Positions 2,201 to 5,338 of a stretch of 64,000 nt of DNA are shown here, one piece after another. The notes under the pieces were generated by a model. The model saw only the letters and a program-made list of their open reading frames with translations, had not been told where the DNA came from and did no database searches. The translations under genes and the position numbers were made by a program. The DNA is from Pseudohongiella sp. (GTDB taxonomy: Bacteria > Pseudomonadota > Gammaproteobacteria > Pseudomonadales > Pseudohongiellaceae): contig JAUSCD010000015.1 of the NCBI GenBank assembly GCA_030651695.1, forward strand, positions 124,001 to 188,000, given 5' to 3'. Every line of letters begins with the position of its first letter. Within the stretch, counting starts at the first letter, position 1.

Positions 2201-2712
2201 TCAGCTCCGGATCGACTCTTCTGACTCAACCAGCCCTGCAAGATCTTGCCGCACCCGATGGTGTCTGTTTTGGCTGCGGCTCAGCGCACCCCAGCGGTCT
2301 GCACATCAAAAGCTACTGGGACCCGGGCAACGAGTTTCTGATCTGCCACCATACCCCCAAACCTGAATTCAATGGCTGGCCAGGCCTTGTCTATGGCGGC
2401 CTGCTCGCCATGCTGATCGACTGCCACTCCAACTGGACCGCCATGGCCAACCACTACCGCGCTGAAGGCCGGGACACTGGCACGCTTCCCCGCGTCGACT
2501 GTGTCACCGCCCAACTCAATATCAGCTATCTGAAACCGACACCCATGGGTGTCGAATTAACGCTGAAGGCGCGGGTGGAAGGTGATATTGCACGCAAGAC
2601 GCGGGTGGTCTGCGAAGTCTGGGCCGGTGACGTGATGACAGCCAAGGCAGACTCCATCTTCGTGAGAGTTGATGCGCAGAAACTTGCCAGCGCGGCGCAT
2701 AGCGCTTCCTGA
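2197..2712 (+). CDS. PaaI/hotdog-fold thioesterase family protein
   Basis: A 171-aa single hotdog domain. It has the N-terminal C-F-G-C-G motif typical of a PaaI-like subgroup, then W-P-G-L-V-Y-G-G-L-L-A-M-L-I-D with the helix carrying the acidic catalytic residue (D of L-I-D), and a C-terminal strand R-K-T-R-V-V-C-E-V-W. Known role of the fold: hydrolysis of acyl-CoA thioesters; the specific acyl group cannot be read from sequence. The start at 2197 is chosen over an in-frame ATG at 2149 because 2197 forms an ATGA overlap with the upstream gene and the domain begins just after it; the earlier start would add a low-complexity tail overlapping the 77-aa gene. Just after the stop begins a hairpin-rich element. 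Confidence 0.82.
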   Translation: MISSGSTLLTQPALQDLAAPDGVCFGCGSAHPSGLHIKSYWDPGNEFLICHHTPKPEFNGWPGLVYGGLLAMLIDCHSNWTAMANHYRAEGRDTGTLPRVDCVTAQLNISYLKPTPMGVELTLKARVEGDIARKTRVVCEVWAGDVMTAKADSIFVRVDAQKLASAAHSAS

Positions 2713-2717
2713 TTGGA

Positions 2718-2797
2718 CAAAATTGCCGGGAGCAATTTTGGATGACCAAAGGTCACCCGAAGGGCGAGGGCCTGGATGGCCCGAGTCAAATCCTGCC
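2718..2797 (+). repeat. Four-hairpin element A, upstream of tRNA-Arg
   Basis: Four successive small inverted repeats: 9-bp stem (2718-2726 with 2732-2740), GA, 5-bp stem TGACC/GGTCA with AAA loop (2743-2755), CCC-GAA-GGG (2756-2764), CGA, 5-bp stem GGGCC/GGCCC (2768-2782), then GAGTCAAATCCTGCC (2783-2797), followed by TCGCACCA. The last part resembles the 3' half of the tRNA T-arm and acceptor in the adjacent tRNA gene. Element B at 3022-3106 has the same order of hairpins with different stem sequences. Confidence 0.7.
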
Positions 2798-2818
2798 TCG
2801 CACCAACTCAAATTTCAC

Positions 2819-2827
2819 TGCTATAAT
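2819..2827 (+). promoter_or_regulatory. Extended -10 promoter for tRNA-Arg
   Basis: TGCTATAAT, an extended -10 element (TGnTATAAT), followed by a GC-rich discriminator (CGCGCCCGC), as is common at stable-RNA promoters. It lies 39 bp before the tRNA 5' end. No good -35 hexamer is seen, which an extended -10 can tolerate. Confidence 0.6.
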
Positions 2828-2866
2828 CGCGCCCGCTATCAATATTGCCAGACTAAACACCAATTC

Positions 2867-2943
2867 GCTCCGGTGGCACAGCTGGATAGCGCGGTCCCCT
2901 CCTAAGGGACAGGTCGCAGGTTCGAATCCTGCCCGGGGCACCA
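2867..2943 (+). tRNA. tRNA-Arg (anticodon CCT)
   Basis: A complete cloverleaf can be folded by eye. The acceptor GCTCCGG pairs with CCGGGGC (one T-G pair). The anticodon stem GTCCC/GGGAC encloses loop CTCCTAA with anticodon CCT. The T-arm is GCAGG-TTCGAAT-CCTGC. The discriminator is A and CCA is encoded in the DNA at 2941-2943. It decodes AGG. The gene is flanked by hairpin elements and followed by a terminator and an AbiE toxin-antitoxin pair. Confidence 0.96.
2896..2914 (+). repeat. Putative attachment-site half (anticodon arm of tRNA-Arg)
   Basis: The 19 bases covering the anticodon loop and 3' stem of the tRNA recur at 5154-5172 with 17 of 19 identical. Anticodon-loop segments of tRNA genes are a known target of tyrosine integrases, so the pair may mark the borders of a small inserted segment carrying abiEi/abiEii. 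This is inference from a short match. Confidence 0.4.
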
Positions 2944-2951
2944 AATACAAG

Positions 2952-2980
2952 CGGGTCACCTGACAAGGTGGCCCGTTTTT
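2952..2980 (+). terminator. Intrinsic terminator of tRNA-Arg
   Basis: Stem CGGGTCACCT/AGGTGGCCCG (one G-T pair) with GACA loop, followed directly by TTTTTG. It lies 8 bp after the tRNA CCA end. Confidence 0.8.
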
Positions 2981-3021
2981 GTTTGGTGATTCGGGCAGCA
3001 GATGAGAACCTGCCGGTTCGA

Positions 3022-3106
3022 CTGATTGCATAGCAATCAGGACGGCTGCAAGCCGCCCCGCAGGGGTGAGGTATTTGGCCAAGCCAAATACCGAATCAAT
3101 CCTGCC
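3022..3106 (+). repeat. Four-hairpin element B, downstream of tRNA-Arg
   Basis: Same architecture as element A: 8-bp stem with ATA loop (3022-3040), GA, 5-bp stem CGGCT/AGCCG with GCA loop (3043-3055), CCCC-GCA-GGGG (3056-3066), TGA, a perfect 10-bp stem with CAA loop (3070-3092), then GAATCAATCCTGCC (3093-3106). It is preceded by GGTTCGA, matching the 5' side of a tRNA T-loop. Stem sequences differ from element A while pairing is kept. Confidence 0.7.
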
Positions 3107-3196
3107 CAAAAATCGCACTTACCCCAGTCTTAGTCCAAGATATTGTCCTCACCCCAATTCAAACTTGAGACTATTTTTCAAACGAAATTCCGACTA

Positions 3197-3235: not shown

Positions 3236-3994
3236 ATGAGAAGAAATACCAGACACCAAGTAATCAAACACCTGTTAGCGGAACTCCCCCGCGGAGCACC
3301 GTTTGACCTCGCTATACTCGAATCATTCGGCGTGTCTCCTCAGCTAGCTGCCAGCTACGTAGAGAGCGGATGGTTGGTGCGCCTGGCGCAAGGCGTCTAT
3401 GCATTCCCGAACGACAACTTCGACGTCAACGGTGCACTACGGTTCTTGCAGAGAAAGGTCACCGGCCTGCATGTCGGTGGAAAGAGTGCCTTGGCGTTGC
3501 AGGGAGTTCGGCACAATCTGGCCACTCGGGAGATCCTGGTGCTTTGGGGTGACGCCCGTTTTGTCCTACCCGCTTGGTTCACAACGCGATTCCCATCGCG
3601 ATACGTTAACGCCAGGTTATTCGACTGGCCGGACGATACCCTGGCCGGCAAGACCCTTCATACACCACCGGGGCAGCCTGCAGGACTACAAGTATCTGTG
3701 CCGGAGCGAGCTACGTTGGAACTGCTCTACGAAACTGGCACCCGGGAAAGCCTCGAAGAGGCCCGCAACCTGTTCGACGGTTTACGATCGCCAAGAAAGG
3801 ATGTTATCGGACACTTGCTGGCCTGCTGTACCAGCGTCAAGGCTGTACGCCTGTTCCTGACTTGGGCACGAGAAACAGAAGTAGTCGATGTCGATACGCT
3901 ACTGGAGCAATACCCGGTTCGCACTGGCAGCAACAAGCGATGGATGAGCCGCCTGGATGACGGAACCTTGCTGAGCCTGAACCCTCATGGATAA
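3236..3994 (+). CDS. abiEi: Type IV toxin-antitoxin system antitoxin, AbiEi family
   Basis: A 252-aa protein with an N-terminal winged-helix-like domain (residues ~1-90, including the G-W-L-V-R-L-A-Q-G-V-Y-A-F segment typical of AbiEi N-terminal domains) and a C-terminal AbiEi antitoxin domain. Known role: transcriptional repressor of the operon and antitoxin that counters the AbiEii nucleotidyltransferase without binding it. The reading frame overlaps the toxin start by 8 bp (3987-3994), so the pair is translationally coupled. It lies just after tRNA-Arg and apparently inside a small insertion bounded by anticodon-arm repeats. The start is preceded by a promoter so close that the mRNA is probably leaderless. 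Confidence 0.9.
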   Translation: MRRNTRHQVIKHLLAELPRGAPFDLAILESFGVSPQLAASYVESGWLVRLAQGVYAFPNDNFDVNGALRFLQRKVTGLHVGGKSALALQGVRHNLATREILVLWGDARFVLPAWFTTRFPSRYVNARLFDWPDDTLAGKTLHTPPGQPAGLQVSVPERATLELLYETGTRESLEEARNLFDGLRSPRKDVIGHLLACCTSVKAVRLFLTWARETEVVDVDTLLEQYPVRTGSNKRWMSRLDDGTLLSLNPHG

Positions 3995-4922
3995 ACAGTA
4001 CGCTGACACCGTTCGCCTGTTGTTAAATATCGCCCCTGAGGTGTTCAACAACGACATCTTCGCCATGAAGGGCGGCACCGCAATCAACCTGTTCCTGCAG
4101 GACATGCCCCGTCTGTCGGTGGACATCGATGTAGTTTACCTGCCTTGGCAGACGCCGCGAGACCGGGCGTTGCAAGCTATCAAAGAGGAACTGGCCGCCA
4201 TCACGCAGCGCATCGAACGTCTCGGCGTGCAATCACGCCTGATAGGCAGCAAGGATCTTGGGGACACCAAGCTGATTGCGGAGAACGACACCAGCCAAGT
4301 GAAGATTGAGGTCAACGTCGTATTTCGCGGCACCGTATTGCCCGTTTCGCGCAGTCCGCTAAGCGCTCACACCAGCGATCAGTTCGGCGTCGAGTTCGAG
4401 GTACCAACCTTGGCCCGTGATGAGCTTTATGCAAGCAAACTGGTCGCTGCGCTGGATCGTCAGCATCCCAGGGATCTATTCGACGTTTGGCAATTATTTG
4501 AAAGCGGCGGTCTGACCAATGCGATGGTCGAATGCTTTGTGGTCTATCTGGCAGGACACAACCGCCCCACCCACGAAGTGCTGTTCGGTAACAACAAAGA
4601 CATCGTCAGCGAATACGAGCGCGCATTTGTCGGCATGACCGAAGTGGCTTGCCCGCTTGACACCCTACTCGATACCCGCGCCCAGCTCCGAGTTCTTTTG
4701 CCGCAACTATTGAGTGACGCTCACCGCCAATTCCTGAGTGGGCTGACCCGGGTGCAACCCGACTGGTCACTCCTGCAATGCCCACATGCCGACCAGTTGC
4801 CCGCACTGCGCTGGAAACTCGAAAACCTGAAAACCTTTCAGAAACGACGGCCGAAAGATTTCATTGCGCAGGCTGATGCGCTTGACGCCGGGCTGGCCGG
4901 CACTCGCAGCAACGACCGCTAA
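3987..4922 (+). CDS. abiEii: Type IV toxin-antitoxin system toxin, nucleotidyltransferase AbiEii/AbiGii family
   Basis: A 311-aa DUF1814-type nucleotidyltransferase. Visible motifs: K-G-G-T-A-I-N-L-F near residue 28, R-L-S-V-D-I-D-V-V-Y with the catalytic acidic pair near residue 45, K-I-E-V-N-V about residue 105, and A-R-D-E-L-Y-A-S-K-L followed by R-D-L-F-D-V-W near residues 145-170, the C-terminal lobe signature. Known role: bacteriostatic toxin, originally described as a phage abortive-infection factor; characterised relatives transfer nucleotides to tRNA acceptor ends. All key motifs appear intact, so the system is probably functional. Confidence 0.92.
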   Translation: MDKQYADTVRLLLNIAPEVFNNDIFAMKGGTAINLFLQDMPRLSVDIDVVYLPWQTPRDRALQAIKEELAAITQRIERLGVQSRLIGSKDLGDTKLIAENDTSQVKIEVNVVFRGTVLPVSRSPLSAHTSDQFGVEFEVPTLARDELYASKLVAALDRQHPRDLFDVWQLFESGGLTNAMVECFVVYLAGHNRPTHEVLFGNNKDIVSEYERAFVGMTEVACPLDTLLDTRAQLRVLLPQLLSDAHRQFLSGLTRVQPDWSLLQCPHADQLPALRWKLENLKTFQKRRPKDFIAQADALDAGLAGTRSNDR

Positions 4923-5338
4923 ACTATCCACTATCTACTATCCAAAACCGCATTCTGTGACTCAAAAAATTTTGCAATCGCAAAAACCTGTGCAAATTCC
5001 CTACGGTTTTCACGCGACTTTTGTGCCCAAAACTGCCACCAAAGTTGTAAATCGGTGTTATACCGGTCTTATTACAAAAGCATTATTTTTCATATATATC
5101 TGATAGATAAGATAAAAACCGATTAACCCAAAATGACAAATCTTTACCGGAACCCACTCCTAAGGGATAGGTTATTATACCGGAGACATAGGTTACACCT
5201 TTGGTATAAACGGATTGTCCCCAGGCTCGCAACAACCTTCCAAACACGTGAACACTCCGTCAAGTACGCAGTTCAACCCCTTGACACATCTCCCAAGGCC
5301 ACAGATAGTCCCTGAAAGCCTGATCCGAGACTGCGACC
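4923..5338. other. Intergenic region with the far border of the putative AbiE insertion
   Basis: 416 bp without a credible gene. AT-rich up to ~5120, with short repeated words (ATACCGG, GGTTATTATACC, GGTTACACC, GGTATA) at 5055-5210. The anticodon-arm copy lies at 5154-5172. No integrase remnant was recognised. The promoter of the downstream peptidase is probably in the last 150 bp but no confident hexamers were identified. Confidence 0.5.
5154..5172 (+). repeat. Partial copy of the tRNA-Arg anticodon arm (putative attachment-site remnant)
   Basis: 17 of 19 bases match 2896-2914 in the tRNA, including an unbroken CTCCTAAGGGA. It lies 232 bp after abiEii, in the same orientation as the tRNA, as expected for the distal repeat of a tRNA-targeted insertion. 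Confidence 0.4.

Follow-up and report, generated by a model that had tools for sequence, protein, structure and literature searches.

Probable RtT-type tRNA-trailer elements on both sides of a Pseudohongiella tRNA-Arg(CCT) gene, with flanks that track the adjoining tRNA

Two four-hairpin elements, A and B, lie on either side of tRNA-Arg(CCT) in a 64,000-nucleotide stretch of a Pseudohongiella genome (the window). We consider it very likely that both are elements of the RtT type, and the fuller explanation, in which they are RtT-type tRNA-trailer elements, is probably the best one as a whole. The sequences show the core of such an element to be a set of four hairpins with GA joints that is seated at the T-loop position of a tRNA, after GTTCGA and before the 3′ strand of the T-arm. 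The helix surrounding the core is either that of a real tRNA (type 1, from which A seemingly descends) or a mimic of the acceptor and T-arm built from antisense and sense copies of the tRNA 3′ third (type 2, which includes B). RtT would then be one branch of a larger family that extends over Gammaproteobacteria and reaches another class of the phylum (a breadth partly known before), two separate Rfam families would join with a core fold backed by covariation, and flanks that copy the adjoining tRNA in both orientations would make two ideas testable, namely movement between tRNA genes and an effect of the trailer on tRNA maturation.

The coordinates given in the initial annotation for A (2718–2797) and B (3022–3106), together with the four-hairpin plan described there, were correct on re-reading, and both elements follow the order GA-h1-GA-h2-h3-YGA-h4-GARTCA. 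In the core of A (2718–2788, forward strand), h1 (2718–2740) is followed by GA, h2 (2743–2755), h3 (CCCGAAGGG, 2756–2764), CGA, h4 (2768–2782) and GAGTCA (2783–2788), after which AATCCTGCC reaches to 2797. A remnant of the tRNA-Arg(CCT) 3′ end, AATCCTGCCtcgCACCA, lies 3′ of the core on the same strand (2789–2805). Because the copy that corresponds to A in genome G001 (L044) still has the 5′ part of the tRNA before the core, A looks like a type 1 copy, in which the core sat in a tRNA T-loop and the 5′ part of that tRNA has since been lost. Folded alone, A was only modestly stable (z −1.7, with 9 of 200 shuffles as good and h1 absent from the minimum-free-energy structure, or MFE), so its reality rests on its match to R1, a covariance model built from 19 elements of the genus Pseudohongiella with B included and A left out. 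R1 detected A at 31.2 bits (E 1.1e-7) as the second-ranked match in the 64-kb window, where the next full-length match had an E-value of 0.2. A 4HBT thioesterase-family gene (2149–2712) stops 5 bases 5′ of A; the ORFs at 30 loci that we compared included no counterpart of it.

B lies directly 3′ of tRNA-Arg(CCT) (2867–2943, forward strand) and in the same sense, and it ends in a copy of the tRNA, but one in which the T-arm strand alone is retained. Between the two is a terminator-like hairpin with a T-run (2952–2980, same strand), which, as read by eye in the genus, is present where an element lies downstream and absent where none does. The left arm of B (2983–3014, forward strand), as indicated by reading, by folding and by a copy beside the same tRNA in G009 (L061), is a decayed antisense copy of the tRNA 3′ third; the left flank of the G009 copy matches antisense tRNA-Arg(CCT), the complement of CCA included, save for a two-base insert and two mismatches. 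Two features of this region go beyond the initial annotation. The first is an outer helix, in which GGGCAG in the left arm (2993–2998) pairs with CTGCCC (3102–3107) in a sense copy of the T-arm 3′ strand (ATCCTGCCC, 3099–3107, forward strand) that serves as the right strand of the helix. The second is a fifth hairpin, h0 (3006–3019, forward strand), apparent in both sequence and fold, in which GAACC (3006–3010) pairs with GGTTC across the loop tgcc. Within these lies the core (3022–3098, forward strand), which comprises h1 (3022–3040), GA, h2 (3043–3055), h3 (CCCCGCAGGGG, 3056–3066), TGA, h4 (3070–3092) and GAATCA (3093–3098), with ATCCTGCC then reaching to 3106. The stretch 3016–3108 folded with z −5.2 (0 of 200 shuffles as good), h3 being missing from the MFE of this short stretch; when the left arm was included (2985–3110), the MFE consisted of the outer helix and five hairpins, h3 among them (z −5.3, 0 of 200 shuffles as good). 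The antisense strand of B folded better than the sense strand (−60.3 versus −56.3 kcal/mol).

R1 was trained on the class of elements with a short h1, because the first MAFFT alignments had mixed two length classes. Among the 19 genus copies, 97.6% of the cells were paired, compared with 31–44% when the partners were slid, and two-sided changes occurred in 80 cells versus 29.9 in shuffles, which bears out the covariation that the initial annotation had read from A and B. Two weaker measures did not stand out in the same copies: 11 pairs had a two-sided change versus 9.1 in shuffles, and further pair types numbered 18 versus 20.9. Kinship among the sequences inflates counts set against shuffles, so the slide control is the safer of the two comparisons.

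Further copies, on which the initial annotation had made its proposal depend, were found at every taxonomic level that we searched. The Pseudohongiella genome itself holds at least ten, of which nine lie within or next to tRNA genes, when a pattern search and R1 are combined. The pattern search returned A, B, a copy 3′ of tRNA-Arg(TCT) and one match that we judged unrelated. R1 returned nine matches, A not among them: B, copies at tRNA-Arg(ACG), tRNA-Arg(TCT) and tRNA-Ser(GCT), a tandem pair after tRNA-Phe in which the tRNA 3′ end is only partly kept, two copies seated in the T-loops of extra copies of tRNA-Arg(TCG), and one with no tRNA in the surrounding 2.2 kb. Each of the two T-loop copies precedes an intact tRNA-Arg(TCG), and one of them retains the entire 5′ part of its tRNA. 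At E ≤ 1e-3, R1 had matches in 24 of 28 genomes (this genome and its relatives). Wider surveys at E ≤ 1e-5, which used stricter filters and counted the Pseudohongiella genome each time, put the share of genomes with copies at 44 of 145 in the order, at 64 of 274 in the class and at 25 of 200 in the phylum, the 25 including some outside the class. A scan of named genomes yielded at least 117 stretches; among the 80 loci listed, the titles were mainly of Gammaproteobacteria, and others said only Proteobacteria, Pseudomonadota or marine bacterium. Tandem units that include the tRNA 3′ end occur in G009 (three copies after tRNA-Ser(GCT) and two after tRNA-Arg(TCT)); there is no tandem repeat at B.

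Across this collection, the core usually lies between GTTCGA and the 3′ strand of a tRNA T-arm, a few copies away from tRNAs being flanked differently. The adjoining tRNAs include those for Arg, Ser, Glu, Pro, Val, Leu, Asp, Lys, Phe and Gln, as well as Tyr in E. coli. We assigned an element to type 1, with its core at the T-loop position of a tRNA, if at least 22 of the 30 nucleotides before GTTCGA matched an uninterrupted tRNA. By this measure 14 of the 157 elements assessed (160 were found, three of which lay too near an end) were type 1, and eight of the 14 matched at all 30 positions. In type 2, the core is preceded, in this order, by an intact tRNA, a terminator and the 3′ third of that tRNA in antisense, and is followed by the tRNA 3′ end in sense. 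A same-strand tRNA lay within 400 nucleotides upstream of 87 of 148 distinct elements, at 60–100 nucleotides in 77 of these 87, and no element of the 148 had only an opposite-strand tRNA within that distance; the other 61, with no tRNA within 400 nucleotides upstream, were partly at contig ends and partly orphans. The proposal that the elements derive from or target tRNA genes thus found support in where they lie, in the T-loop cases and in flanks that copy tRNA.

The right flank matched the element's own tRNA at 8 of 8 positions in 63 of 87 elements, versus 4 of 2085 comparisons with tRNAs for other amino acids, and at 7 or more positions in 82 of 87 versus 298 of 2085. Scored against its own tRNA in antisense, the left flank reached 13 or more in 29 of 99 elements (70 fell below this score); foreign tRNAs gave such a score in 7 of 2475 comparisons, and none of the 99 reached it against the own tRNA in sense; in 59 of the 99, the left flank beat every foreign tRNA sampled. 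The clearest case (L186) matched at 28 of 28 positions, the complement of CCA included. Pairing between the flanks pointed in the same direction only moderately, because the T-arms of different tRNAs resemble each other: the duplex energy of the outer helix was −13.9 with the element's own tail, −11.1 with the tails of other tRNAs and −10.6 with shuffled flanks; fewer than one in ten foreign tails paired equally well in 29 of 87 elements; and an outer helix of at least 4 bp formed in 62 of 87 own folds versus 195 of 435 folds with swapped left flanks. Hairpin h0 was weakly above shuffles (63 of 87 versus 502 of 870). We did not find this architecture, a T-loop seat combined with flanks that copy the tRNA in antisense and in sense, in print, and in the literature searched (most subscription journals lay outside it) there was no description of the antisense arm or of the tracking of the tRNA.

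The original work on RtT is reportedly that of Bösl and Kersten. When we read the sequence of E. coli MG1655, the RtT in the tyrT–tyrV spacer and the three repeats after tyrV (four RF00391 copies around tyrT/tyrV) had the same plan as the elements described here, and so did the hairpins of the RtT beside E. coli tRNA-Ser. R1 found the latter (28.0 bits, E 7.7e-7), as well as a copy from Mangrovibacter (59.2 bits), and weakly found the tyrT rtT, recovering three of the four copies with a best score of 16.1 bits (E 0.0041). The Mangrovibacter stretch matched E. coli genomes in some part in 5375 of 5426 cases, a figure that is no count of RtT because the matched stretch includes the tRNA; ten matches listed were annotated as tRNA-Ser plus RtT sRNA. 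The shared features are the outer helix, h0, the four hairpins and the GA joints, along with a position 3′ of a tRNA in sense, a copy of the tRNA 3′ end and tandem units. B differs in its neighbor, tRNA-Arg(CCT), to which its outer helix conforms. In the RF00391 consensus, the outer helix is retained but strands of h0 and h3 pair with one another, whereas the sequences here support separate hairpins.

The Rfam models divide these elements between them. RF00391 had no match at E ≤ 10 in window positions 2690–3130, B missing its gathering threshold of 45 bits, and it scored 40.8 bits on the copy at tRNA-Ser(GCT) in the same genome and 46.2 bits on the Mangrovibacter copy. Among 26 genomes (this one and its relatives), RF00391 exceeded its cut-off in two, this genome being below threshold at tRNA-Ser. 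Leaving aside the tRNA, the best Rfam match of B was RF02902 (AaHKsRNA22), at 36.2 bits, below the gathering threshold of 39.8; the copy at tRNA-Arg(ACG) scored 43.6 bits, and RF02902 exceeded its cut-off in 12 of the 26 genomes, this one included, all of the same genus. AaHKsRNA22 is a 101-position model that spans the core region, its name is linked neither to tRNA nor to RtT, and no mention of it by name was found in the literature searched. Because copies of the genus were found by both R1 and RF00391, the two families thus catch different branches of one kind. B, which falls under the threshold of one family and is missed by the other, is therefore a diverged variant of the RtT kind, a kind that is itself known. 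The initial annotation had left undecided whether the family had been described: the kind has been, as RtT with RF02902 overlapping it; the antisense arm and the tracking of the tRNA we did not find in print.

Under the trailer explanation, read-through of the tRNA terminator would place the element within the 3′ trailer of the pre-tRNA, the trailer would fold as the outer helix with h0 to h4, and tRNA-processing nucleases would cut the element free to give a stable small RNA, the fate reported for E. coli rtT and the Actinobacillus RtTs. We lean slightly towards such a released RNA in Pseudohongiella, by analogy, and regard a selected regulatory role for it as possible but rather doubtful. 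In spreading, the elements may have inserted themselves or been copied into the 3′ ends of tRNAs, been duplicated in tandem along with a tRNA 3′ end and terminator, and recombined with one another. In sRNA sponges of the 3′ETS-leuZ type, a spacer of the tRNA transcript yields a separate small RNA, and by description alone the elements here are similar in being a possible source of a spacer-derived small RNA. Passages in PMC4986893 describe RtT as released from tRNA transcripts and modulating the stringent response, and report Northern signals for RtTs beside Asn and Lys tRNA genes, which they place upstream of those genes and not downstream. Elsewhere, a Thioalkalivibrio RtT is described as upregulated in the cold (in part of PMC8092127), rtT is named as a tandem repeat of 175 bp by which Salmonella serovars differ (in a section of PMC2658671), and a tandem GA motif in RtT RNA has already been noted (in an excerpt of PMC7657543). 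To judge from portions of such sources, RtT has so far been reported from enterobacteria, Actinobacillus and relatives, and Thioalkalivibrio (e.g., PMC4986893, PMC8092127, PMC2658671).

A different reading puts the constraint on DNA: the elements would be palindromic, MITE-like mobile DNA with the T-loop of tRNA genes (GTTCGA/ATCC) as its target. Such DNA might move in the form of a single-stranded hairpin, and any RNA would be incidental. We take this reading seriously while stopping short of favoring it. The stems are near-perfectly Watson–Crick paired with little bias towards G-U. Segmentation was possible for 88 of 148 elements and failed for the other 60; the stems of the 88 contained 23 G-U and 11 A-C among 2166 cells, compared with 56 G-U and one A-C among 1416 cells in the stems of tRNAs from the same loci (Fisher p 5e-5); this rarity of G-U argues against purely RNA-level selection, and since segmentation favors G-U over A-C, its bias runs against the DNA-level conclusion. 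Plain counts of MFE base pairs gave no clear answer (7.0% G-U in elements, 6.9% in antisense, 9.2% in shuffled sequences and 4.5% in terminator hairpins), and the sense strand folded slightly better than the antisense in 98 of 148 elements, B being an exception. The same tRNA-Arg(CCT) has an element downstream in six genomes of the genus and none within 600 nucleotides in eight (one more gave no tRNA match). Together with the G-U rarity and this presence in some genomes and absence in others, the cores that directly follow tRNA sequence ending in GTTCGA (two of them in this genome before an intact tRNA-Arg(TCG)), exact head-to-tail tandems (L049), copies with no tRNA in the stretch examined (L037, L050 and L084) and h1, h2 and h4 that, by reading, occur in mosaic combinations between tRNA loci keep a DNA-level mobile element in play.

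Against mobility as the whole account stand the orientation of the elements, which are in sense with the nearby tRNA in 87 of 87 cases, and the RNA products annotated or reported for E. coli and Actinobacillus. A partial search of neighboring genes also weighs against it: a Pfam scan of 10 proteins from five loci found no mobilizing enzyme, including no cognate transposase of the kind expected for an insertion-sequence MITE, and no ORF family recurred in more than seven of 30 loci, or in more than eight loci in a second comparison. Within the mobile-element reading, which is compatible with the trailer explanation, fold-back copying or a template switch at the target would have produced the antisense arm. 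More tentatively, RtT-type elements might form a distinct class of tRNA-gene parasites, in which a palindromic core settles in the T-loop and, with every move, generates the 3′ third of the host tRNA in antisense, and hence an acceptor/T-arm mimic of the adjoining tRNA; the stems would be kept at the DNA level, and the RtT RNA of E. coli would be the transcript of such a parasite, either domesticated or incidental. REP/BIME palindromes and elements of Y1 transposases are likewise extragenic hairpin repeats that are possibly mobile; the likeness is by description alone, the target of the elements here being the tRNA T-loop. Integron attC sites have the core motif GTTRRRY, and we rejected them as a match since the conserved sequence here, by inspection, is GTTCGAC.

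It is very unlikely that the elements are leftover attachment sites of tRNA-integrating islands, each of which would have brought a tRNA 3′ half, a terminator and a hairpin block. What invites this reading is a pair of abortive-infection toxin–antitoxin genes, AbiEi/AbiEii, which in G006 (L041) lies between two copies, the second of them preceded by a tRNA-Arg(CCT) 3′ half that starts from the anticodon loop; the same pair, by ORF clusters, follows B in the window (3236–4922). Bare tRNA 3′ halves also occur in G012 and G014. However, conservation of the core extends across families and classes, the left arm is an antisense copy rather than a direct repeat, and the 10 neighboring proteins scanned were of metabolic or housekeeping types (thymidine kinase, EF-P, EarP and others, with one lacking a family). 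We rejected an origin as island attachment sites on finding no integrase among these proteins from five loci and no widely recurrent ORF, in what was a partial search. That the two are unrelated terminator or attenuator hairpins alike by chance, a notion favored by the modest fold of A alone, is practically impossible, being refuted by the E-value near 1e-7 from a model untrained on A, by the covariation and by the class-wide occurrence.

The edge in the window that matches the right edge of the G006 arrangement (5153–5171) looks decayed. In G014, one contig has both an intact tRNA-Arg(CCT) and, ~49 kb away, a bare 3′ half that starts from the anticodon loop (C10:39349 and 88115; L244 and L253), an arrangement that suggests a genomic island at tRNA-Arg(CCT) in that genome. 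Viral carriage was rejected, a single IMG/VR contig having the element (L234, 12313–12395) and no tRNA in the stretch. Three copies with no intact tRNA nearby (L082, L084 and L050) either nest, by reading, with a different hairpin repeat (type CTCCTGC...CATCCCTGGCGG) or precede one. In G442, a genome outside the class, three of the near-identical copies (L258–L260) have GACCCTATGAC in place of GTTCGAC before h1; two of the three have no tRNA within the 0.8 kb examined, and together they have the look of a dispersed repeat.
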